From contig NZ_JACJPF010000044.1 of assembly GCF_014695915.1 (NCBI RefSeq), positions 1 to 64,000 of the forward strand: a stretch of 64,000 nucleotides of DNA, written 5' to 3'. This DNA comes from Trichocoleus sp. FACHB-40 (GTDB lineage: Bacteria; Cyanobacteriota; Cyanobacteriia; Cyanobacteriales; FACHB-T130). A program made the position numbers and the translations under genes. The notes beneath the pieces were generated by a model that saw only the letters and a list, made by a program, of their open reading frames with translations, was not told the origin of the DNA and did no database searches. Positions 11,372 to 49,579 of this stretch are shown here, in pieces. Each line of letters begins with the position of its first letter. The stretch's first letter is position 1.

Positions 11372-11377
11372 TAGGAT

Positions 11378-11440
11378 GGGAATTGGGAATTGGGAATTGG
11401 GAAGAATCTTACCTAGTCCCCAGTCCCCAGCCCCCAGTCC
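11378..11440. repeat. Heptamer repeats between convergent genes
   Basis: Tandem GGGAATT units are followed by several TCCCCAG-type units. The G-rich and C-rich halves are roughly complementary and could fold into a hairpin in the gap between the converging receiver-kinase gene and the minus-strand repeat protein. It may act as a bidirectional transcription barrier, but there is no T-run. Confidence 0.6.
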
Positions 11441-15537: not shown

Positions 15538-15640
15538 TATAGCAATCCTATTTAAGTTGTGAAAAAGTATTCGCCCTGGTGTAGGAACACGGCACTGCCG
15601 TGTCCCTACAGAAGTTCACGAATCATTTAGGATTGCTATA
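15538..15640. repeat. MITE-like element, TATAGCAATCCTA ends, copy 1
   Basis: A 103-bp element starting TATAGCAATCCTA and ending with the inverse (TAGGATTGCTATA). The terminal inverted repeats are imperfect over about 26 bp. The core is a second palindrome, GTAGGAACACGGCA paired with TGCCGTGTCCCTAC. A copy with almost the same ends but a different core lies at 16797-16895. No open frame inside, so it would have to be moved in trans. Confidence 0.8.
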
Positions 15641-16654: not shown

Positions 16655-16796
16655 AAATATACACAGATGTTGTGATGCCCGTAGTTTTTTTTACTACACG
16701 TTGGCGATCGCATTTTCCATATTTCTGACTTTTTCCCGGATTCCTTCGGGTCTTTGGCTGGAAACGAGAATAATCTCACTCAAGCAAAACCTGATA

Positions 16797-16895
16797 TATA
16801 GCAATGCTATTTGAGTTGTGAGCCAGCCCTTCAGATACCGGACTTCGAGAGAGAAGTCGGGTATCTCGCCTTCACGAATCATTTAGGACTGCTAT
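16797..16895. repeat. MITE-like element, TATAGCAAT ends, copy 2
   Basis: A 99-bp element with the same outer ends as the copy at 15538-15640 (TATAGCAATGCTATTTGAG at the left; CACGAATCATTTAGGACTGC at the right). Its core is a different palindrome, GATACCGGACTTC paired with GAAGTCGGGTATC. That core is the one seen in the elements at 22867 and 49471. It lies between tpsA and the DUF928 gene. Confidence 0.8.
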
Positions 16896-16953
16896 CCCTG
16901 CCTTGGCAGTGTAAACAATGCTAAATTTTTAACGCATAACTAATGATTTAGGA

Positions 16954-19707
16954 TTAATCAGCTTTTTTCGGCTGAGTGTCTGGATGGCAAATTAAATCCT
17001 TAGCACTGGCAGGTTCCAGCTTTTGAGCAGCTGTAGCGACGAGAATGCGTCCATCTGCCGTAGCGGTCATTGCTTGGGCTTCAACAACGCGATCGCCTAG
17101 TTTCCAATTTTGGGAATTGGGAATTGGGAATTGGGAATTGGGAATTGCCTCTTGTTCACCTTGTTCCTCTTGTCCCTCCTCAAGGGGTTGGACATCTACG
17201 AGACGGTAGCGATCGCTTTGTGCATCATAAGGAGTCGGCTGTAAACCACCCGTACCCGTGACTGTGAAACTTCCCCGTTCCACATTGCGCCGCGCCAGAC
17301 AACTACCAGCCACCACTTGATCGGGACTAACAAAATTAGCTGCTAACGGCGAAATCGAATTTTGTAAAAAGGTGAAATCTGGCACATCGACTACACCATT
17401 GGTGCCAAATCTAGAGGAAGCTGAAATATCAACGCGACCGTTATTACGAAATATCCTGGCATCAACAAAGTCTTTGCGAACCGGAGCATATTTGTCATAG
17501 ATAAAAGCAGGGATATCTCTACCCGTGATGTTTCCTCCTGGGCCATTTTCAGCAGCCGCCAGAAGGTCGCTATCTTCCAGAGCAATGAATTGTGAAGATT
17601 CTGGGTTAGTTCCCACGAGAACGACATCGCCGCCGCCACCGTCGCCATTAAAAACGCTGGTGCTAATCAGGCTACTATTACGCAGGCTGATATCTTTAGC
17701 AGAAATCACGATATTACCACCGCCAGTTTGCAAAGACTCGGCTGTAATGCTGCCGCCGTCCATCGTTATGTCTTGGCTCATCGTCATAATAATGTCCCCG
17801 GCGCTGCCTGTTGCTGCACTGCTGACACTAACTCCAGCGCCATCAGTTATCGAAAGCGACCGAGAATTAATAATAATCCCGCCGCCTTTGCCGCTGCTTC
17901 CCTGGCTTGCCGTACTAGCAATGCCAGTTTGTAATGATGTCGGTGGTGCATTATTACCTTTAAGAGAAATAGAATCTTCAACTACCAAAAGTATAACGCC
18001 AGCGTTACCTTGTCCTTGAGTTTCAGTTGTTAATCCACCACCATTAGTAGCAGAAAAAGACTTACTAACCATAATGATACCGCCGCCCGATCCTGTTGCT
18101 TCTTGTGCTACACCACTTAATATCCCGATGCCATTTTCTATAGAAACCGAATCTTTTGCTAACACAAATACAGCGCCAGCATTTCCTATTCCTCCAGTGC
18201 TGGTATTAATTTGAGCGCCGTTTTTTATGGTAAGCGTTCCAGTTTCGATACCAATAGAAGCAATGAGATCCCCACCTGTGGCTAATGAATCGCCAAAAAT
18301 ATTCCCAGCCAGAGTATCAAGATTTCCCACAGCTCCGGGTTGTATAGTGCTAAGAATTGCAGTACCATTACCTTCTAAAGAAACCGAGTCTGTAGCTTCT
18401 AAAAATATCAATCCTGCATTTCCTAAACCATTTTCCCGCACCAAAGTTTGCAGTTGAGCGCCGTCTTGTAGGGAAATTGAAGGAGAGTTAATAACAATAC
18501 CACCAGCATTGCCGATTCCTGTGGATTCCACAGTGCTGAAAATACCACTTCCATCGCCTGTAAGAGAGACATTGTTTGTAGCTTGTAAAGATATTACTCC
18601 GGCATTTCCAATACCACCTCCACGCACTAGAGTTTGTAATTGAGCGCCATCTTTTACTGAAATTGAAGGAGCGGTGATAATAATACCGCCAGCCTTGCCT
18701 ACTCCTTGAGATTCCACAGTGCTGAGAATTTTACTTTCGCCTGTGATTGAAACGTTTTCTGTAGCCGCAATTAATACTAAACCAGCATTTTCTGGTTCAT
18801 AGATACTGGTAGCTAGTTCCGCTTTATTTTCTATAGAAACTGTTTTGCCTCTAATGAAAATACCGCCAGCATCAAATTTGTTACCGATTGCAGCACTTGT
18901 ATTAATCCTTGAGCCATTGGTAATTAATACATCTGCATTTTGGACTCCTTGGGCATCAGCTTGAGCAAAATCTACAAAGGGAACGCTGCCAAAAAACTTT
19001 AACCCTAGTTCTCCTGCTCCTGCTAATCCCGTTAACTCGATAATACCGCTTAGGGAAGTTAATACACCGCCATCAAGTGTTACATTGCCGCCTAAAAGCA
19101 AGATACTATTACCATCATTTACTCGCAACCCGTTCAGCGAGCCGGGATTTATCGGATTTGCATCTGGAGTTACGGAGCGATTGATGATATTTCCGGCGGC
19201 AATTTGATTAAATAGCAGGGCAGAAGGAGCTACATTTAGTATTTGTGATGGTAGTGGTTGAGCGCGATCGCTACTGAAAACATCGCCATTAGCTAACCGG
19301 AGAGCATTGGCAGTTGTTGCTACAAAGGAACCACCAATATTGAGCGAAGAATTTTCCCCAAAGATGATGCCGTTGGGATTGATTAGAAATAAGTTAGCTG
19401 TACCGTTTGCTCTGAGCAAACCATCAATATTTGAGATAGATGTACCTGTGACGCGATTGATAATGTTCTGAACATCAAAGGCATTGTTGAAATAAGCGCT
19501 ACCGCCGTTGGGTACAGAAAATTCTGAAAAACTGTGAAATAAGTTGCTTCCAGTTCTGAGTCCTCCATTAATCGTAAAGTTGTTGCCAGGTGTAACTGTA
19601 GTAGGAACACTGCCATCAGAAGAGATTTGAGCAATGGCAGGAATGGGGAGAGAAAGGCACAAGGCTAAAGGGAAAAGGGAAAAAGCAAGAAATGGGTAAT
19701 TTTTCAT
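16954..19707 (-). CDS. TpsA: filamentous haemagglutinin-type two-partner secreted protein
   Basis: A 917-residue exoprotein. A signal peptide (cleavage likely after AIA, residue 26) is followed by the TPS recognition domain: NNFTINGG (42-49), LFHSFSEFSVPNGG (56-69) and the NPNGI motif at 110-114, which in this family is recognised by the TpsB pore. Residues about 180-700 are Gly/Asn/Ser-rich repeats (GNAGVI, GGIIINS, SISLQDGAQL) expected to form a right-handed beta-helix. The C-terminal segment has a Cys pair around SCLARR and SAKDLICHP. Five exact GGGAATT heptamers at 17112-17146 encode IPNSQFPIPNSQ near the C-terminus. Its likely pore, TpsB, is divergent at 22708. Adhesion or contact function is inferred from the family. 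Confidence 0.92.
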   Translation of the reverse strand: MKNYPFLAFSLFPLALCLSLPIPAIAQISSDGSVPTTVTPGNNFTINGGLRTGSNLFHSFSEFSVPNGGSAYFNNAFDVQNIINRVTGTSISNIDGLLRANGTANLFLINPNGIIFGENSSLNIGGSFVATTANALRLANGDVFSSDRAQPLPSQILNVAPSALLFNQIAAGNIINRSVTPDANPINPGSLNGLRVNDGNSILLLGGNVTLDGGVLTSLSGIIELTGLAGAGELGLKFFGSVPFVDFAQADAQGVQNADVLITNGSRINTSAAIGNKFDAGGIFIRGKTVSIENKAELATSIYEPENAGLVLIAATENVSITGESKILSTVESQGVGKAGGIIITAPSISVKDGAQLQTLVRGGGIGNAGVISLQATNNVSLTGDGSGIFSTVESTGIGNAGGIVINSPSISLQDGAQLQTLVRENGLGNAGLIFLEATDSVSLEGNGTAILSTIQPGAVGNLDTLAGNIFGDSLATGGDLIASIGIETGTLTIKNGAQINTSTGGIGNAGAVFVLAKDSVSIENGIGILSGVAQEATGSGGGIIMVSKSFSATNGGGLTTETQGQGNAGVILLVVEDSISLKGNNAPPTSLQTGIASTASQGSSGKGGGIIINSRSLSITDGAGVSVSSAATGSAGDIIMTMSQDITMDGGSITAESLQTGGGNIVISAKDISLRNSSLISTSVFNGDGGGGDVVLVGTNPESSQFIALEDSDLLAAAENGPGGNITGRDIPAFIYDKYAPVRKDFVDARIFRNNGRVDISASSRFGTNGVVDVPDFTFLQNSISPLAANFVSPDQVVAGSCLARRNVERGSFTVTGTGGLQPTPYDAQSDRYRLVDVQPLEEGQEEQGEQEAIPNSQFPIPNSQNWKLGDRVVEAQAMTATADGRILVATAAQKLEPASAKDLICHPDTQPKKAD
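17112..17146. repeat. Five tandem GGGAATT heptamers inside tpsA
   Basis: Five exact tandem copies of GGGAATT lie in frame in tpsA. On the coding strand three units (21 bp) make seven residues, so the peptide also repeats with a period of seven. The same heptamer occurs between convergent genes at 11378. Confidence 0.95.
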
Positions 19708-19765
19708 TTGGGAGGTAATTGGTAATTGTCTTCTTTCTCAGTCCGCAGCTTAGGAACGAGGATTT

Positions 19766-22492
19766 TTACAGCCAGTTTCCGATGAGGATAAAAGGCGACC
19801 AAAGAGCAGGATGGTTGTAGTCGAAATTGGCGATCATTTTAAGTTGAGCTTTTTGAAGTGCTTCTACTTTGGTAATTCCTGGTTGGCTTAGTTGCGTATA
19901 AAATTCTTCAATTAGCGGAACTGTAGCTTCGTCGTTGATAAACCACAGAGTAGCAAGTGCGCTTTCCACTCCGGCGCGAACTGCTACGCCAGCAATTCCC
20001 AAGGCGGAACGATTGTCACCAGCGGCGGTTTGACAAGCACTCAAGGTTAGGAGTTTGACTGCTGGTTTACCAGGACGCGATCGCAATAAGTTATCAATTT
20101 GCTCGATACTAATTTGCTCGTCATACCCTAATAAAAAGGTGTTCTCGGCATCTACTCCAAATTTGCCGTGTGTCGCCATGTGAACGACCGGGTAGCTATC
20201 TTGCTGGAGTTGGGTTTGCAAGTTTTCCAGGGTGAAGGCGTTGTCTACTAGGGGAGTACCGCCAAGAATTTGTTTGACGGCTTTCACCTCGGCTTCAACA
20301 TTCATTAGCGGCGCAAATGGCGGTTTTTCGACAGTTAAGCCCATAATTAAAGCTTTCAGCTTGCGCCTGTCTTGGGATTGACTGTTAGTAAGGTTGATGC
20401 TGGGTGTGGTAGCGATCGCATATTTCTGAATTAAAAATTCTTTGCCATCATGCAGCGCTGACATCGGTATCTGTCGCATTACCCCATCATTAATGAAGAC
20501 TAAGGTACGCAATTTGGAGGCAGCTAAATCTGCCTCCATTGGGCGAATCAGTAAGTTGTAAACTTTTTGGGCTTGGGGGAGATATTCTTCGCTTCCCCGA
20601 TTTTCTAACAAGTTGCGTAACAGCTCGATTTCTTTTTCTAGTTGCTGTTTGCCAATTTCTACCTTATAGCTGCTCATTGTCCCATTGGGACGTTGAAAAA
20701 TCATTTCGGTGCGGTCGTCCAAAATGACTGAGTAAATTGCCGCTGCATTGGTGTCAGAAATAGCTCCATTTATCTGGCTATTATTTAGTGCTACTTGCAC
20801 GCAATCATCGCCAAAGAAATTTTGCAATTCTGCTAACTTCAGGGATTCTAAGGTGCCGATAACAGTTTTGAGAGAATTGTCTTTTTGTAGGGGGTAAGCA
20901 TTGCGGCTATTATTTTGAGCTACAAGCTTTGAATCTTCTGCTACAATGCTTCGCCCGTAAAGTTGATTCTCAGTTGCTAACAATAACTCCATCAGTCCTC
21001 GGTAAACTGGCTCCACGTCGTCGCGGAAGTTAAATTGCAACTCTTTGTTAGCTACAACGATGTCGCCGCGAATACTTTGGAGAGTAGCGATCGCGCCCTT
21101 AAAAGATGCGATCGCTTGACTTTGTTTATTGATGGCTTTATAAATCCGCCCCGCCTGCCATTGCCAACGATACAAACTATCCGCAGCATTCACTTTTTGT
21201 GCAGCTAATTGAGCTTCACCTGTCAACAAGAGCGCTTTTTCATATCCCCTAGAAACTTCGTACAAATTCCCTAAGCTACCAAGAGCAAAAGATTCGGCGC
21301 GACTATCGCCAATATTTTTAGCAATGGTGAGGGCTTTTTCTAATATCCAAACTGGAAATTCTGAAATACGATTCGCCGCTTCTTCTGTGGAATTTTGACG
21401 CTTTAAACTGTCGGCAATATTAATTAAGGCGTATGCTTTATCTCGCGAATCTGGCGCTTGTTCTATTAAGGCGAGTGCAGAGTTGCGGTTATTGGCAATT
21501 TCTGCCAAATTGGGCGAAGGCGATCGCTCTAACAGGCGGTTCAAATTCAGCAAAGCTTGTATAGCCGATCCGCTTCCCCCTACTTCTACACTTTCTTGAA
21601 AAGAGGACTGAGCAGCGTCTACATCATTTTCTGCCAGTTTTGTCAACTCTTTGAACTGCGGATCTCCTTCTAGACGAGCCAAAGTTGCCTGGTAGCGATA
21701 TCGCTCAGCTCGACTCAGATAAACATTGCCACGATTATTTAGAGCAGTGCTTTGGAGATTATTAGATTGCAGTTCGCGGGAAATTTTCAGGCTAGCGTCG
21801 TGAGCTGCTAATGCTTGCTCGTAGTCGCCTAATGCCCAGTAAGCATTTCCCAAAGCTCCTTGGGCTGCGGCTTGCGTGGACTTGTCGGAAATTTTAATAG
21901 CAAGCTGTAAAAGTGCGATCGCTTTTCGATACTGTCCTAAATCGCTGTAAGCTTGCGCTTGTTCTGTCAACAATTTCGCTATTTGGCGATCCGACTTGCC
22001 ATCTTTTGCGTAAATTTGAATCGCTTGCTCCCAGGAAGCGATCGCTCGATCTATTTTGCCAGTCTGGCGATAAGCTACTGCCAGGTTAGTGTGAATAACA
22101 GCCCGATCTTTGGCTTGTTTAGTTTGCGCGAGTGCTTCTTGCCAAAGCGCGATCGCTTCTGTAAAATTTCCTACTTGATAGCGTTCAATCCCCTGTTGCA
22201 CCAGCGCCACAGAGGAAGTAGAAGCGATAACGCTTGTCTGGTGAGTTGTTACCCAATACTTTTCGGTTAACTTCTCCCCTACAAGGAGAGGTTCCGGCAA
22301 TTTCTCCCCCTTCCCTGATAGGGAAGGGGGTTGGGGGGTTAAGTCTGCCTGATCCGCAACAGGTTGAGTGGCTACCAACACCTCTGCTGACTTGATCGGC
22401 AAAGCGTTGAGCGCAAAACAAAGAATAAACCCCGACAAAAATAAAAGACTGAAGCGATGCCAACGCTTGCATATTATGTATAGTTCAGTCAT
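19766..22492 (-). CDS. Exported CHAT-domain (caspase-like) protease with TPR repeats
   Basis: A 908-residue protein. An N-terminal hydrophobic segment (about 14-32) predicts export or anchoring. TPR-like helical repeats fill about residues 95-480 (for example AVIHTNLAVAYRQTGKIDRA). The C-terminal CHAT domain (about 600-908) keeps the caspase-like dyad: His775 in HMATHG and Cys820 in LSACQTA, both intact. The family is named for caspase and HetF associated with TPRs. Residues 51-76 are encoded by a palindromic repeat at 22266-22342. It is 58 bp upstream of tpsA on the same strand, so the two are probably co-transcribed. If the N-terminus is a signal peptide the protease acts outside the cytoplasm, where TpsA passes (inference). 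Substrate unknown. Confidence 0.92.
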   Translation of the reverse strand: MTELYIICKRWHRFSLLFLSGFILCFALNALPIKSAEVLVATQPVADQADLTPQPPSLSGKGEKLPEPLLVGEKLTEKYWVTTHQTSVIASTSSVALVQQGIERYQVGNFTEAIALWQEALAQTKQAKDRAVIHTNLAVAYRQTGKIDRAIASWEQAIQIYAKDGKSDRQIAKLLTEQAQAYSDLGQYRKAIALLQLAIKISDKSTQAAAQGALGNAYWALGDYEQALAAHDASLKISRELQSNNLQSTALNNRGNVYLSRAERYRYQATLARLEGDPQFKELTKLAENDVDAAQSSFQESVEVGGSGSAIQALLNLNRLLERSPSPNLAEIANNRNSALALIEQAPDSRDKAYALINIADSLKRQNSTEEAANRISEFPVWILEKALTIAKNIGDSRAESFALGSLGNLYEVSRGYEKALLLTGEAQLAAQKVNAADSLYRWQWQAGRIYKAINKQSQAIASFKGAIATLQSIRGDIVVANKELQFNFRDDVEPVYRGLMELLLATENQLYGRSIVAEDSKLVAQNNSRNAYPLQKDNSLKTVIGTLESLKLAELQNFFGDDCVQVALNNSQINGAISDTNAAAIYSVILDDRTEMIFQRPNGTMSSYKVEIGKQQLEKEIELLRNLLENRGSEEYLPQAQKVYNLLIRPMEADLAASKLRTLVFINDGVMRQIPMSALHDGKEFLIQKYAIATTPSINLTNSQSQDRRKLKALIMGLTVEKPPFAPLMNVEAEVKAVKQILGGTPLVDNAFTLENLQTQLQQDSYPVVHMATHGKFGVDAENTFLLGYDEQISIEQIDNLLRSRPGKPAVKLLTLSACQTAAGDNRSALGIAGVAVRAGVESALATLWFINDEATVPLIEEFYTQLSQPGITKVEALQKAQLKMIANFDYNHPALWSPFILIGNWL
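22266..22342. repeat. Palindromic repeat in frame inside the CHAT gene
   Basis: A 77-bp element bounded by GTTAAC and GTTAA contains two palindromes: CCCCTACAAGGAGAGG-type and CCCTTCCCTGATAGGGAAGG. On the coding strand it gives the peptide LTPQPPSLSGKGEKL and following residues, just after the signal segment. A fragment of the same kind (CCTACAAGGGGAGAGGT) lies in a spacer near 44351-44367. Confidence 0.75.
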
Positions 22493-22520
22493 GTATCATT
22501 AGGTAGATTATCGTTATTTT

Positions 22521-22554
22521 AGTGGAGATACTTTCAATTGTCTGTATCTCCACT
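22521..22554. promoter_or_regulatory. Inverted repeat between CHAT-tpsA and tpsB
   Basis: A perfect 10-bp inverted repeat, AGTGGAGATA (22521-22530) and TATCTCCACT (22545-22554), lies in the 215-bp divergent spacer of the TPS locus. Its position suits an operator or a leader hairpin shared by both transcripts (inference). Confidence 0.45.
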
Positions 22555-22566
22555 GAACTATTTGAG

Positions 22567-22720
22567 TAGTTTTACGGAATCTTACCGAACCAAACCGTAG
22601 ATTTACGGATGTAAAACCATGAGTTATAAGGATTTGGTGATTCGTACAACTTTCTACACCTCAACTCAATAGTTTTACTGAATCATTGACGAACCGTAGA
22701 TTTACTGATGGAAGCCATGA
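22567..22720 (+). repeat. Direct duplication of the tpsB leader
   Basis: Copy 1 (22567-22622) and copy 2 (22670-22720) match over most of about 51-56 bp: TAGTTTTAC(G/T)GAATC, GAACC, CGTAGATTTAC(G/T)GATG and an ATGA. Each ends at an ATG; only the second opens the tpsB frame. The first is followed by a short dead frame. Repeated TTAC(C/G)GA motifs inside copy 1 could be sites for a direct-repeat-binding regulator (inference). Confidence 0.7.
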
Positions 22721-24792
22721 ATTCTAAGCTGTTTGCGATCAATACAGGGTTGTTATGTCTCAGCTGGAGTTTCCTGGCTCTTACGCGCTCGCCAGCTTGG
22801 GCCAGAAATCCAGAAAATACGCTGATGCAACAGGATACAGCAGCTTGCAGTCGGATGAAGTCCAGCCTATGTGGAGAGATACCCGACTTCTCCAAAAAGT
22901 CGGGTATCTGTGTACCTTACTCACCCGAAAAGGCCTGTAGTACCATCGCCGCCTCACCGTCTAGCCTTGACCATTACCGAAATTTTTCCAAAGGTGAAAT
23001 AGTCGGCTCAGACAGCCAGCAATTAAAATTGCACAGCTCAAATTCAGTCCGTTTTAACGGAGGGCTATTAGACGAGGAATTGATTCCCCAAGGGGACAGC
23101 AAAGAAGCAGAAAATTCAGAGTGTAGCAAATCTGACGAGCAGGATTGCACAGTTGCACAATTACCACAGACACCGCCTCAAATCCCGCCCGGAACTGTGG
23201 AACCCCCAGGCTCTAATCTGGAACCTTTGCCCACACCCCAGGAGACACCAACACCGGAACCTTTGCTCCAAACACCAGAGCCAGAACCAACTGAAACTCC
23301 ACCGGGTGAAGGAGTGAGAGTCAAAATCAAGAGCATTAAGGTTTTGGGGAGTACCGTCTTTTCGCCAGAAAAATTACAGGAAATTGTACAACCCTTTATC
23401 GGTAATGAAGCAACTTTTGAACAACTGTTAGAGATTCGCACTGCGATTACAAATTTATACACTCGCGATCGCTACACTACCTCCGGCGCATTTTTGCCGC
23501 CCCAAGATGTAACCAGTGGTGAGATTACAATTCAGGTAATAGAAGGAGCGATAGAAAAAGTTGAAATTCAGGGGTTAAATAGGCTCAGAGAAAATTATGT
23601 GCGATCGCGCATCGAACGTGCCTCCCGACGTCCAGTTAATCTGCAACGTCTGGAAGAAGCGTTACAATTATTACAACTGAATCCGCTGCTAAGTTCAGTA
23701 CAAGCCGAACTGACAGCCGGAACTGCTCCCGGACTAAGTATATTAACGCTCTCGCTGAAGGAAACGCCGCCCATCACCACCGCGTTCCTGTTGGAAAATC
23801 GAGAGTCTCCCAGCGTTGGGGAAATCAGAGGAACAGTTGCCGCCAGTCACAATAATTTACTGGGATATGGCGATCGCTTCGCCGTCGAATATGGACTAAC
23901 TGAAGGTATCCGAAGTTACAGCTTAAGCTACGATATTCCCGTAAATTCCCTTGATGGCACCCTCAGCCTGCGCTATGGGAACAACAGCAGCAAGATTATA
24001 GAGGAACCCTTTGCGCCGCTAAATATTGAAGGTGAAGCGCAAACTGTATCACTCTCGTTCCGTCAACCAATTATCCGCACACCTAGTACAGAATTTGCAG
24101 TTGCAGTATCAGCTGATTGGCGACAAAGCCAGACTTATATATTAGGTGAGATACCCTTTTCTTTTTCGGAAGGGCCAGAAAATGGCTTGTCCACAGTCAC
24201 CGCTTTGCGTTTTAGTCAAGAGTGGACAAATCGCTCATCTAACAGAGTTTTTGCAGCGCGATCGCAATTTAGCGTAGGCGTGAACGCTTTAAACGCCACC
24301 ATCAACGAAGCCGCAGCTGATGGGCAATTTTTCAGTTGGGTAGGACAATTTCAGTACGTTCAGGCTCTCGGACGCAACGTCGTTTTAATCGCCCGTACAG
24401 GTATCCAGCTTTCCAACGACACGCTACTTTCCCTAGAACAATTTAGTATCGGTGGCGTTGATACAGTGCGCGGCTACCGACAAAATCAAAGAGTTGCAGA
24501 TAATGGCTTTCTTGGATCGGTAGAAGTGCGCTTTCCCCTCATCCGCGAACCTGATGGAATTGGAATTATCCAAATAGCTCCATTTTTTGATATCGGAACC
24601 GTTTGGAATAACAATAGTGAAATCGCAACTCCCCAAACTCTTTCTAGCGTTGGTTTAGGATTGCGCTGGGAACTTTCCCCATATTTTTTAGCCCGTTTAG
24701 ATTGGGGAATTCCCCTCACCTCTATCGACAATCAAGGCGGCTCCCTGCAAGACAGTGGACTCCATTTCTCCTTCCGTCTGCAACCGTTTTAA
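22708..24792 (+). CDS. TpsB: ShlB/FhaC-type outer-membrane pore of two-partner secretion
   Basis: A 694-residue outer-membrane translocator. Signal peptide (residues about 4-32, ending SPAWA), a variable linker that is Pro/Glu/Thr-rich (about 155-205), two POTRA-type domains (about 205-360, starting VRVKIKSIKVLGSTVFSPEKL), then a 16-strand beta-barrel of the ShlB family with FSIGGVDTVRGY (the conserved VRGY loop that plugs the pore) and a C-terminal Phe. It should export the TpsA encoded at 16954. Start: ATG 22708 or ATG 22717; the second begins MNSKLFA and is preceded by GGAAG. Residues 54-78 (in LCGEIPDFSKKSG) are encoded by a MITE-like element. It is divergent from the CHAT gene. Confidence 0.93.
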   Translation: MEAMNSKLFAINTGLLCLSWSFLALTRSPAWARNPENTLMQQDTAACSRMKSSLCGEIPDFSKKSGICVPYSPEKACSTIAASPSSLDHYRNFSKGEIVGSDSQQLKLHSSNSVRFNGGLLDEELIPQGDSKEAENSECSKSDEQDCTVAQLPQTPPQIPPGTVEPPGSNLEPLPTPQETPTPEPLLQTPEPEPTETPPGEGVRVKIKSIKVLGSTVFSPEKLQEIVQPFIGNEATFEQLLEIRTAITNLYTRDRYTTSGAFLPPQDVTSGEITIQVIEGAIEKVEIQGLNRLRENYVRSRIERASRRPVNLQRLEEALQLLQLNPLLSSVQAELTAGTAPGLSILTLSLKETPPITTAFLLENRESPSVGEIRGTVAASHNNLLGYGDRFAVEYGLTEGIRSYSLSYDIPVNSLDGTLSLRYGNNSSKIIEEPFAPLNIEGEAQTVSLSFRQPIIRTPSTEFAVAVSADWRQSQTYILGEIPFSFSEGPENGLSTVTALRFSQEWTNRSSNRVFAARSQFSVGVNALNATINEAAADGQFFSWVGQFQYVQALGRNVVLIARTGIQLSNDTLLSLEQFSIGGVDTVRGYRQNQRVADNGFLGSVEVRFPLIREPDGIGIIQIAPFFDIGTVWNNNSEIATPQTLSSVGLGLRWELSPYFLARLDWGIPLTSIDNQGGSLQDSGLHFSFRLQPF
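22867..22939. repeat. MITE-like element in frame inside tpsB
   Basis: A 73-bp segment of tpsB is the reverse complement of the left two-thirds of the intergenic element at 49471-49579. The shared parts are a terminal TACAG, TTTTCGGG(C/T)GAGT, GGTACACAGATACCCGACTT, the complementary AAGTCGGGTATCTCTCCA and ATAG. It is in frame, has no stop codon, and encodes about 25 residues between the signal peptide and the Pro-rich linker. Confidence 0.85.
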
Positions 24793-25293: not shown

Positions 25294-28260
25294 TTAGTTT
25301 TCTAGGATAGACACTATAGGAAATTCAATAACTGTTATATCTTCTTCTGCTTCTGTACGTGTACTGTAAACTCGACCGTGCCAAGCCCGATGAAAGTCTG
25401 GGTAATTCATCTTTATGGCACAATACCAAATATCTTCGTAGTAATTTTTTTCTACATAATTTTCCTTTTCCATATAGTGTTTTAGAAGAGCAACTATACA
25501 TAACCAAGTATCCATGTTTTTTAGATTTAGTACAATTCCTTGACTGGCTAATCTTTCCTGCTTACAGTCAAAAAATGAATAAAGGATGCTTGAGTCAAGT
25601 TGCTTCAATTTCTCCAAAGATTGCTGCCATAATTGCCGTTCTTTCTCTAGGTCTGATATTCCGTTTATTAGTTCGCAAAGAACCTTAATAGCTTGCTGTT
25701 TGTACTGCTGAGTTCTCCCTAAAGTAGAGGCGGCTTGCAAACGTTCCCAAGGCTCCTGACTAGGGTTGATAAACTTCTTGAGAACCCTAATTGCATCTGG
25801 ATTTTCTGGGTCAGTTCCTAGCAAGTTACAAGCAGCTAGTAGAGGAATATTTACTATAATATCGCCCCGCTCGCTGTTTAGCATCTCAGTCAGCGTCTTG
25901 ATAGCCTTCGGGTGGCGGGGAGAGATTTGTCCTAAGGTAGAGGCAGCATTAAGACGTAAACCTTGATTGCGATCGATTAAATCCGTCAAGAAGTCAATCG
26001 CCTCCGGGCTACCGCAGTCAAGTTCTCCTAAGAAATTAGCAGCTTCTAGACAAACCCAGTCAGGTAAGTCGGTATTCCATAACTGCTGCTTTAGAAAGTT
26101 AACAGCTTCTCGTTTATCTGGGTTAATTTTTCCTAAAAAAAATGCTGCTTCTAGTGGGAGTTCTTTATCGTCGATGTTAGTATTCATCAACTTAGTCAGG
26201 GCAGCAATAACTTTTGAGTTACCAGTGCCGATTTGCATTAAGCTGTTAAAGACTTTCCAACGAGCATCATCATCCAAAAAATCGCTGTCTAGCGCCTTAA
26301 TCAAAACATTGATAACTCTTGTACGATCGGTTTCTAGTAAAGTCGCCCAAATTGCTGGATTAACAACCCTATCAACTCCTGTAGGCGAGTCGTGTTCTGT
26401 GGCATACTCGACAAGCCTTGCCACAATCCAATCAGCACCGATACAGTCTCTAAATTCTGCAATGCCAGCAGCGGCTAGAAAAAGCGCTAGATACCAGTAG
26501 AAGTCCCAGCACCCATCCTCAAACTCAATCAATGCCCGGATAAAATCCTCCTTTTGCTGCTTTGGTACTTCTTCCTCTGGTCGCCCTAACCACAGCAAAA
26601 TTATCTCTTTCCACTGTGGCTCAAAAATACGGTAAGAGTTTCGTGCTGGTTTGGGGTTGTTATTGTCGTGTTCGCGGGGTAAAAAATAATCCCAATCATC
26701 AATCACACAAGCTGCAAAATATTCCTGAAACGTGGGATGGAAGAAGGCATATACTTTTTCATCGGTTTCTGCATCCTTGTAGACAAAATTCAGCCAATGC
26801 AACTTTTCAGTTGCTAACTTAAACAAGTCTTCCCCCATGACATCGAGCGCAAAACTCTCTCGTATTCCAAACCGGGATTTTTCTTTATCAATTGCTTTCC
26901 GTGCCAGCAGCCCCAGCGCTGTGTTTAACTCCTTACGCTTTATCGCATTTGTGGAAAATTGTTCTTGTTTCCAATCATAGAAAGCTCGCGTAAATTGCTC
27001 GTAAAGCGCGGCTTTAGTTTCTGGTAAATCGCCTTGGCGGAAATACCAGCTTTGACACAGCAACGACAGCCGCAGGGGGTTTTTGACTAAATCTCGGATA
27101 CGCTGATGTCTGTCTTCATCTAGCTTTTCCCGTAACGGTTCCCCTAGTTCTGGTTTGTCAGTTTGGGAGAACCACTCACAGATAAACTGTCTCACTTGAT
27201 CTGGTTTATTGCTTTCCCCATAGCTAAAGTCCAAGGTGCGATAAGTATCAAAACCCGGTAAAGCATTAACACTTGCATCCCAGACATTTTGCCGACAAGT
27301 CACCACAGTTCGCGCATCAGCAACCCAGCCTGTAAGGTGTTCTTCTCTAATTTTGCGTAAAGCTTCGACGGGTGAGGATGCTGGCATTTCGTCCACTCCA
27401 TCCAACAGCAGCAACACTTGACCGCTTTTGAACAGATTTTCTAGTTCTTTCTGCTGTTCTGTGACATCTGAAGTTTTAAGCGCGTCTTTTAGCCACTTCT
27501 GACGCAGGTATTCTTCTAAACTTTTATCTCTCAAACTACCCAGAGAAACCCAAATTGGGAAACCTGGTGTTTTTGGAGAGAATGCGATCGCTTCTAGCAG
27601 AGTAGTTTTCCCGGCTCCCGGTTCGCCAATGATGGCGATGCGTCTCCCTTGGCTCTTTTTGCTTTGTCCCTGCGTAATAACTTGCTCTAGAAACTCGTGA
27701 TGCTCATAAGTTTGGGTGATTTCTTCCTCATGTAGCTGGAAAAAACCCGATCCTTGCTCTGGTGAAACAGAGAAATCGTCGCTACGTCTGGGTTGGTGTT
27801 TGCGCTCGACTAATCCCAGCTCTACATAAAATGCTTTAGAAACTACCTCGGTAGCTTGTCGTCTGATGTTTAGTTTCTGAGACTCCAGCATATCGCGGCA
27901 AATTTGTGTCCAGTCATGAGACGCGATCGCGCTACCAGTCTCAGAATCTTTGTGTTGCTGTTGTTCTAAATACACTTTTTCCAGGCAAGCTTGCACTCTC
28001 TTAACCTTGCCTTTGTACTCGGAGTTTATTTCAGGAAAACTCTGTGAAAGCTTATCGAATATCTCCTTCATGCGCTTGTTATAGGTCTGAAGAGCTTTCT
28101 CAGGTTCACCTCCTATAACTTCATCTGCAATATCCTGATTTTTCTTATCGATGTTCTGCCGAGCAAATCTGACCAGTAAAACTGCTTCCTGCGGCACAGT
28201 CAGCTCATGGTCAGAGGCTATCACTTTTAGAAAATTATCCCAGCCATCCCATAATTTCAT
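25294..28260 (-). CDS. NACHT-HEAT STAND NTPase (NLR-like)
   Basis: A 988-residue protein. Residues 1-100 form a helical region with a possible helix-turn-helix look (TVPQEAVLLVRFARQN, NQDIADEVIGGEPEKAL). A linker (DWTQICRDMLESQKLNIRRQ, about 117-134) typical of cyanobacterial NACHT proteins precedes the NACHT module: Walker A GEPGAGKT at 212-219, Walker B LLLLDGVDE at 283-291, sensor-like VVTCRQNVWD. The C-terminal half has repeated helical pairs (AANFLGELDCGSPEAIDFL, AASTLGQISPRHPKAIKTL) of HEAT type. STAND ATPases of this build act as ligand-triggered switches, and several bacterial relatives are antiphage defence proteins. A defence role here is inference. No toxin effector domain is visible unless the N-terminus is one. 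Confidence 0.9.
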   Translation of the reverse strand: MKLWDGWDNFLKVIASDHELTVPQEAVLLVRFARQNIDKKNQDIADEVIGGEPEKALQTYNKRMKEIFDKLSQSFPEINSEYKGKVKRVQACLEKVYLEQQQHKDSETGSAIASHDWTQICRDMLESQKLNIRRQATEVVSKAFYVELGLVERKHQPRRSDDFSVSPEQGSGFFQLHEEEITQTYEHHEFLEQVITQGQSKKSQGRRIAIIGEPGAGKTTLLEAIAFSPKTPGFPIWVSLGSLRDKSLEEYLRQKWLKDALKTSDVTEQQKELENLFKSGQVLLLLDGVDEMPASSPVEALRKIREEHLTGWVADARTVVTCRQNVWDASVNALPGFDTYRTLDFSYGESNKPDQVRQFICEWFSQTDKPELGEPLREKLDEDRHQRIRDLVKNPLRLSLLCQSWYFRQGDLPETKAALYEQFTRAFYDWKQEQFSTNAIKRKELNTALGLLARKAIDKEKSRFGIRESFALDVMGEDLFKLATEKLHWLNFVYKDAETDEKVYAFFHPTFQEYFAACVIDDWDYFLPREHDNNNPKPARNSYRIFEPQWKEIILLWLGRPEEEVPKQQKEDFIRALIEFEDGCWDFYWYLALFLAAAGIAEFRDCIGADWIVARLVEYATEHDSPTGVDRVVNPAIWATLLETDRTRVINVLIKALDSDFLDDDARWKVFNSLMQIGTGNSKVIAALTKLMNTNIDDKELPLEAAFFLGKINPDKREAVNFLKQQLWNTDLPDWVCLEAANFLGELDCGSPEAIDFLTDLIDRNQGLRLNAASTLGQISPRHPKAIKTLTEMLNSERGDIIVNIPLLAACNLLGTDPENPDAIRVLKKFINPSQEPWERLQAASTLGRTQQYKQQAIKVLCELINGISDLEKERQLWQQSLEKLKQLDSSILYSFFDCKQERLASQGIVLNLKNMDTWLCIVALLKHYMEKENYVEKNYYEDIWYCAIKMNYPDFHRAWHGRVYSTRTEAEEDITVIEFPIVSILEN

Positions 28261-28451
28261 AACGCGATCGCAGTCTCGACAGGTTCTCAGCTTCTTGATT
28301 ACGAACTTAACCTATTACTCAGCCAATCTCAACTAGAAGAATTCTTCTACTTTACTAGAAGTTATTAGGGACTAGGAATTAGCAAAAGTTCCTCTTAGCA
28401 TGAATTTAATGCTAAATCCAGCACTCCAAACTAAGTTAAAGAGGCAAATTT

Positions 28452-28616
28452 ATGGACTGCTTTCAGTATGTAATCCCTGGCTTAGAGCAATTCTTCCCAA
28501 CGGAAATAGAACGGAATAACTCAAATTCAACTGACGAAAAACTAGAAAGTCAGACTGACATCAAGAACCATTCGGAGTTTCAAAATCTAGAGCCTGAGCC
28601 TGAATCTTTTTCCTAA
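28452..28616 (+). CDS. Possible 54-residue small protein
   Basis: ATG at 28452 preceded by GAGG 7 bp upstream opens a 54-residue frame ending TAA at 28614-28616. The protein starts MDCFQYVIPGLEQFFP and ends in an acidic tail (LEPEPESFS). A 7-bp palindrome TTAGCAT/ATGCTAA (28395-28415) lies upstream, where an operator could sit. No family recognised; coding status rests on the ribosome site and frame only. Confidence 0.35.
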   Translation: MDCFQYVIPGLEQFFPTEIERNNSNSTDEKLESQTDIKNHSEFQNLEPEPESFS

Positions 28617-28662
28617 TCTGCGTCTAATATACCCTGTGAATAGAATTCACGATTGTAAAAAC

Positions 28663-28862
28663 GTAGGGACGGGTTTGAAACCATCGGTGTCAATTTAAGC
28701 CCCGGCGAATGAATTCGCGGCTACAAAAACCAAGTCCGCCTGCCTTGGCTAACGGATCGAGATTCTTATAACCCGCGCAGGCGGGTTTTGTTTGTATAGC
28801 TGCGGTTTCAACCGCCAAGCTAACGTTAAGTTGACACCAATGGTTTGAAACCCGCCCCTACC
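28663..28862. repeat. Nested composite palindromic repeat, copy A
   Basis: Outer inverted arms GTAGGGACGGGTTTGAAACC plus ATCGGTGTCAATTTAAGC (28663-28700) pair with the inverse at about 28819-28860. Inside lie a palindrome GGCGAATGAATTCG with CGGCTACAAAAAC, a central hairpin AACCCGCGCAGGCGGGTT, and TGCGGTTTCAACCGC. Copy B is at 55301-55575. Confidence 0.85.
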
Positions 28863-49470: not shown

Positions 49471-49579
49471 TACAGCGCTTTTCGGGCGAGTGAGGTAAGG
49501 TACACAGATACCCGACTTCTCCAAGAAGTCGGGTATCTCTCCAGATAGCCTGTACTTCATTCGACTGGAAGCCGCTGTA
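49471..49579. repeat. MITE-like element with AGATACCCGACTT core
   Basis: A 109-bp element with imperfect inverted ends (TACAGCGC...GCCGCTGTA) and a central perfect palindrome AGATACCCGACTTCT with AGAAGTCGGGTATCT. It lies between DUF4079 and the RND gene. A 73-bp portion recurs inverted inside tpsB at 22867-22939, and the core also occurs in the 16797 element. Confidence 0.85.

Follow-up and report, generated by a model that had tools for sequence, protein, structure and literature searches.

All three long genes of the TPS locus in the window, the whole 64,000-nucleotide stretch of Trichocoleus sp. FACHB-40 DNA that we analyzed, carry an in-frame repeat. We conclude that these inserts very probably come from three genome-wide families of small repeats, selfish or born of slippage, which are tolerated as filler, by a process that is proteome-wide and not specific to export. 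All three repeats have copies dispersed through the genome, each as a family of its own, and in the part of the genome that was surveyed the same kinds of repeat lie in genes of all classes, with exported proteins represented as often as expected by chance.

Table 1. Genes, repeats and related elements in the window
Feature	Position	Strand	Basis
tpsA, secreted partner with TPS domain (PF05860)	16954-19707	-	domain search
TPR-CHAT gene (PF12770), exported, with signal segment	19766-22492	-	domain search
tpsB, POTRA_2 and ShlB	22708-24792	+	domain search
Heptamer array (TTGGGAA)5.4, read in tpsA as AIPNSQFPIPNSQN	17110-17147	-	TRF
75-bp double-hairpin dispersed repeat, read in CHAT gene as LTPQPPSLSGKGEKLPEPLLVGEKLT	22266-22342	-	BLAST, profile search, folding
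MITE-like element read in tpsB after the signal peptide (hairpin core 22876-22910)	22836-22939	+	sister-copy alignment, profile search
Intergenic sister copy of the tpsB element (83% over 109 bp)	49471-49579	-	alignment
Intergenic ~105-bp MITE with TATAGCAATCC-type ends, containing the tpsB hairpin core	16791-16896		
Second MITE with TATAGCAATCC-type ends, different hairpin	15538-15640		
Intergenic TTGGGAA array, control for variability (27 bp; 90 bp in G040, a 63-bp change; ~6 kb from tpsA array)	11377-11403		

Results

In the TPS locus, tpsB is divergent from tpsA and the TPR-CHAT gene (Table 1). Tandem-repeat scanning, folding, BLAST and profile searches recovered the three repeats where the initial annotation had placed them, apart from a correction to the start of the tpsB element, and a domain search put all three outside folded domains. 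Domain coordinates, family membership and comparison with orthologues likewise agree with the view that these are three distinct families, independently inserted in linkers. Each of these linkers is variable, and aligning orthologues, the check that had been proposed, indeed found the repeat peptides absent or different in other genera. Three side observations concern a 2-copy, 186-bp internal repeat of tpsA (18322-18693, 72%), which is protein-level and unrelated to the dispersed families; a NACHT-HEAT gene adjoining tpsB (26432-28682), which is only 89.6% identical to its counterpart in strain G040, although the locus is otherwise at 97%; and records labeled Nitrospira, Nitrospirae, Bacteroidales, Syntrophobacteraceae and Alphaproteobacteria (L108, L110-L114) in which a TpsB homologue lies no more than a few kb from a TPR-CHAT gene, labels by which the TPS-CHAT association extends outside cyanobacteria.

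The tpsA array consists of 5.4 copies with a 100% match (TRF score 76), a pattern that occurred 0 times in 100 shuffles of the window. It encodes aa 853-866 in the C-terminal linker, with the TPS domain at aa 26-272, and the conserved W.LGD...EAQ motif resumes after it, in frame. Most homologues are without this insert, but the corresponding linker has other repeats in some lineages: Symplocastrum torsivum has AATCCCC units, Argonema and its relatives a GGGAGAG(G/T) octamer, and UBA11372 a run like GGGGGCAGA. Different G-rich 7/8-mers have thus been gained in at least 4 lineages (at least 3 besides the window strain), which marks the linker as a tolerant site that has been colonized at least 4 times. 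Such repeats occur in 8 of 43 tpsA linkers, some of which are near-duplicates, versus none of the 43 tails that precede them upstream (P = 0.005).

The CHAT repeat, at aa 49-76 of a protein whose TPR/CHAT domains begin near aa 99, folds as two adjoining hairpins (-35.5 kcal/mol). BLAST returned 20 intervals genome-wide, some of them a single copy matched on both strands, and a profile search found 29 copies in 2.05 Mb, 8 of them intragenic. Its hosts are unrelated conserved proteins that read it in frame (MenC, RmlB, a hydantoinase-like enzyme and CHAT proteins), and both orientations are used in genes. Copies have no preferred open frames, with 2.5 open per copy versus 2.7 in shuffles. The closest orthologues outside the genus share 52-55% identity, and no inspected N-terminus of an orthologue from another genus had the repeat peptide in the stretch that separates the signal segment from the TPRs. 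The genome encodes another exported TPR-CHAT protein (L139:5363-8335, minus strand), in which the 75-bp repeat falls within the CHAT-domain span. A conserved two-hairpin structure was ruled out, as the G040 copy folds differently.

The MITE-like element of tpsB does follow the signal peptide, but alignment with its 83% sister copy moves its start ~30 bp upstream of the one first proposed, to ~22836. It encodes aa 43-77, and the POTRA domain starts at aa 206. In orthologues the signal peptide is recognizable (matched in L081 and L093), and the stretch between it and the IPPG linker is short or different. Among copies, similarity to the element reaches 104-109 bp only with the sister copy, and short, imperfect TACAGC/GCTGTA-type inverted ends are found in 2 copies. 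The hairpin core has 26 profile copies in 2.05 Mb and is intragenic in 1 of them, that in tpsB, so that our conclusion can be generalized only from the heptamers and the CHAT repeat. Most of the remaining cores lie within ~105-bp intergenic MITEs with TATAGCAATCC-type ends. The two MITEs with such ends in Table 1 flank a DUF928 gene and combine common ends with unlike hairpins inside, as though the central part could be swapped.

We then considered which genes host inserts, using ~2.05 Mb of the 6.38-Mb genome, taken in stretches, with 1,576 genes called by a home-made hexamer model. This sequence holds 346 merged arrays of period 7, 14 or 21, with AATTCCC among the commonest units; the 231 heptamer arrays of repeat-type units comprise 136 intergenic arrays, 42 fully within coding cores, and a remainder at gene edges. 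Inserts of any kind were found in 44 of the 1,576 genes (19 cytosolic, 9 exported, 5 inner membrane and 11 other). The initial annotation had linked the repeats to exported proteins, a link that the genome count does not bear out: the 9 exported hosts, assigned by a crude hydrophobicity rule, compare with 7.6 ± 2.5 expected (P = 0.34), and we therefore reject enrichment among exported proteins. Moreover, 3 of the 9 are the TPS locus itself and several others are over-calls, including RmlB and a chorismate-binding enzyme, both wrongly filed by this rule, and a histidine kinase. Elsewhere, the hosts are mostly cytosolic enzymes, with NCBIfam assignments including MutS2, TilS, citramalate synthase, RmlB, MenC, CobN and CobD. 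In MutS2 (L129:15521-18040, minus strand), a 13.4-copy heptamer array lies within the ATPase domain, where its ~34 residues (414-447) stand just before the Walker-B-like LILLDEVGAGTD segment and have no counterpart in solved MutS2. Compared with solved structures, RmlB has ~40 extra residues, and the insert of citramalate synthase directly precedes the conserved HTHND segment.

What permits insertion into genes is frame openness. Because 7 and 3 are coprime, every frame of one strand reads the same 7-residue cycle, and a heptamer without stops in one frame has none in the other two frames of that strand; for example, AATTCCC reads NSQFPIP, or GNWELGI on the other strand, and AATCCCC reads NPQSPIP or GDWGLGI. 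Heptamers open on both strands formed 38 intragenic and 63 intergenic arrays (38/101), versus 4 and 73 for other heptamers (4/77; odds ratio 11, Fisher P = 1.3e-7). The claim that each insert keeps the frame held in both strains, where tpsA, the CHAT gene and tpsB are all intact. Since closed units are removed from genes, openness explains this without any special role for the inserts. The coding strand was C-rich in 33 intragenic arrays and not in 9 (P = 3e-4).

Finally, we compared parts of G040, a genome of the same species (~97% identity), covering 5 coding and 14 intergenic arrays. Position and length of the tpsA, CHAT and tpsB inserts are unchanged between the two strains, so that the frequent length change expected of contingency-type repeats was not seen in these genes. 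Of the 5 coding arrays, 4 were unchanged and 1, in MutS2, was shorter in G040 by exactly 21 bp, or three units, whereas 7 of the 14 intergenic arrays had changed length, some by non-multiples of 3. Inserts accumulate residue changes at ~5-15 times the rate of the remaining protein, with pN values of 0.167 versus 0.011 for CHAT, 0.069 versus 0.004 for tpsB, and 0.061 versus 0.010 (whole gene) for tpsA, from small numbers of nonsynonymous changes (2 to 10 per insert). Within inserts, pN/pS is ~0.6-1.2, against ~0.06-0.16 outside the CHAT and tpsB linkers and ~0.15 for the whole of tpsA. The tpsA array is still 38 bp in G040, where GGG has become TGG in three units, leaving two of the five G3 tracts seen in the window. 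In addition, the CHAT hairpin loop (22309-22327) reads CTGATAG in one strain and CTATCAG in the other (G040 records L282/L283), the tpsB core (22889-22899) is likewise inverted (CTCCAA-type versus TTGGAG-type), and an intergenic copy (C57:47035) has the same loop flip. These differences fit inversion of the loop through template switching, a process that PMC8794818 deals with.

Discussion

In the reading that we favor, repeats would land in, or grow inside, linkers of the three genes, and would persist where they happen to be free of stops and have a net length that is a multiple of three; for heptamer arrays, only the total length would have to keep phase. Selection would purge coding sequence of closed heptamers and of lengths that break the frame; what is left would be a weakly constrained spacer peptide, presumably translated and near-neutral for protein function. 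The initial annotation had seen in these repeats tolerated, perhaps useful, variation of exported proteins. Tolerance stands; usefulness does not, given the fixed lengths in two strains, the pN/pS of ~0.6-1.2 and the loss in G040 of both the G-quadruplex tracts and the two-hairpin structure of CHAT, and neither does export, for which the surveyed sequence has no enrichment.

A more functional variant of this reading, conceivable though unlikely, is that open heptamer arrays and hairpin repeats are a proteome-wide source of new linkers in this lineage, with slippage in three-unit steps and loop flips giving frame-safe variation that is sometimes used, e.g., in linkers colonized repeatedly, like the C-terminal one of TpsA. 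It also seems improbable to us that the repeats form a diversification device for exported proteins, in which hairpins that flip and arrays of the contingency type would vary linkers in a secreted or surface system. Inserts do occur in all three genes of the locus, with a simulated P = 0.036 for any three adjacent carriers; this value is post hoc, the families having been picked from the same locus, and we give little weight to an arrangement that is only mildly unusual. The tpsA linker gains arrays recurrently, and inversion of the tpsB core and CHAT loop changes residues at constant length. However, exported hosts are not enriched in the 2.05 Mb surveyed, the three lengths do not differ between two strains in which intergenic arrays do, the flip is also seen in an intergenic copy, and longer arrays sit in cytosolic enzymes.

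We consider it very improbable that the heptamer array works at the DNA or RNA level, through template-strand G-quadruplexes that tune expression as proposed for the GGGNATC repeats of Xanthomonas and Nostoc (PMC4692102). The five G3 tracts on the non-coding strand of tpsA would suit such a role, as would the C-rich coding strand, a bias like that in PMC4692102. Yet the two tracts left in G040 are too few for such a structure, which rules out a conserved quadruplex retaining at least 4 tracts, and avoidance of G-rich mRNA fits the strand bias equally well. That the inserts mark a locus decaying into pseudogenes is hardly credible: the linkers evolve fast, but intact frames in both strains and low pN/pS elsewhere in the genes indicate purifying selection.

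Taking the inserts as tolerated filler, ~3% of the examined genes of a free-living cyanobacterium carry frame-open dispersed repeats, even in the MutS2 ATPase domain, and a simple rule describes which repeats are compatible with genes: a stop-free 7-mer supercycle and a length in phase. It would accordingly be a mistake to regard such peptides as a mark of exported proteins.

Small repeats fused in frame within genes are known from Rickettsia, enterobacteria and Neisseria, and for two Neisseria elements, of 107 and 155 bp, Delihas described the same open/closed rule. Rickettsia palindromic elements (Ogata et al. 2000; reviewed in PMC2229807 and PMC10969869) are hairpin repeats in frame within unrelated conserved proteins and are thought to be neutral or slightly harmful. 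The CHAT repeat resembles them as a small dispersed hairpin in frame in its enzyme and CHAT hosts; unlike them, it belongs to a different organism, is used in both orientations, has no open-frame excess, preferred frame or conserved peptide, and is intragenic in only 8 of 29 copies. The tpsB element and the ~105-bp intergenic MITEs resemble the MITEs and REP-like small dispersed repeats of bacteria (many-copy elements of ~100 bp that form hairpins and have short inverted ends; PMC10969869, PMC3733652) in hairpin form, size and copy number, and the short, imperfect ends seen in 2 copies of the tpsB element may be a further likeness. For in-frame heptamers in cyanobacterial enzymes, our literature search found only the Nostoc/Xanthomonas paper (PMC4692102). 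There, the GGGGA(C/T)T heptanucleotide repeats (STRR) of Nostoc PCC 7120 are 68% intergenic, and hence 32% intragenic, and the heptamers of Nostoc and Xanthomonas are under-represented on the coding strand, which the C-richness of our coding strands matches. The arrays described here are similarly G-rich, dispersed, perfect or near-perfect tandem 7-mers that are mostly intergenic with an intragenic fraction. Beyond that system, we show the units, of which GGGAATT is one of several, the openness rule, hosts among conserved enzymes and a difference of 21 bp between strains, and thereby add a cyanobacterial case of a known phenomenon, with a host list, an openness test and a strain comparison.
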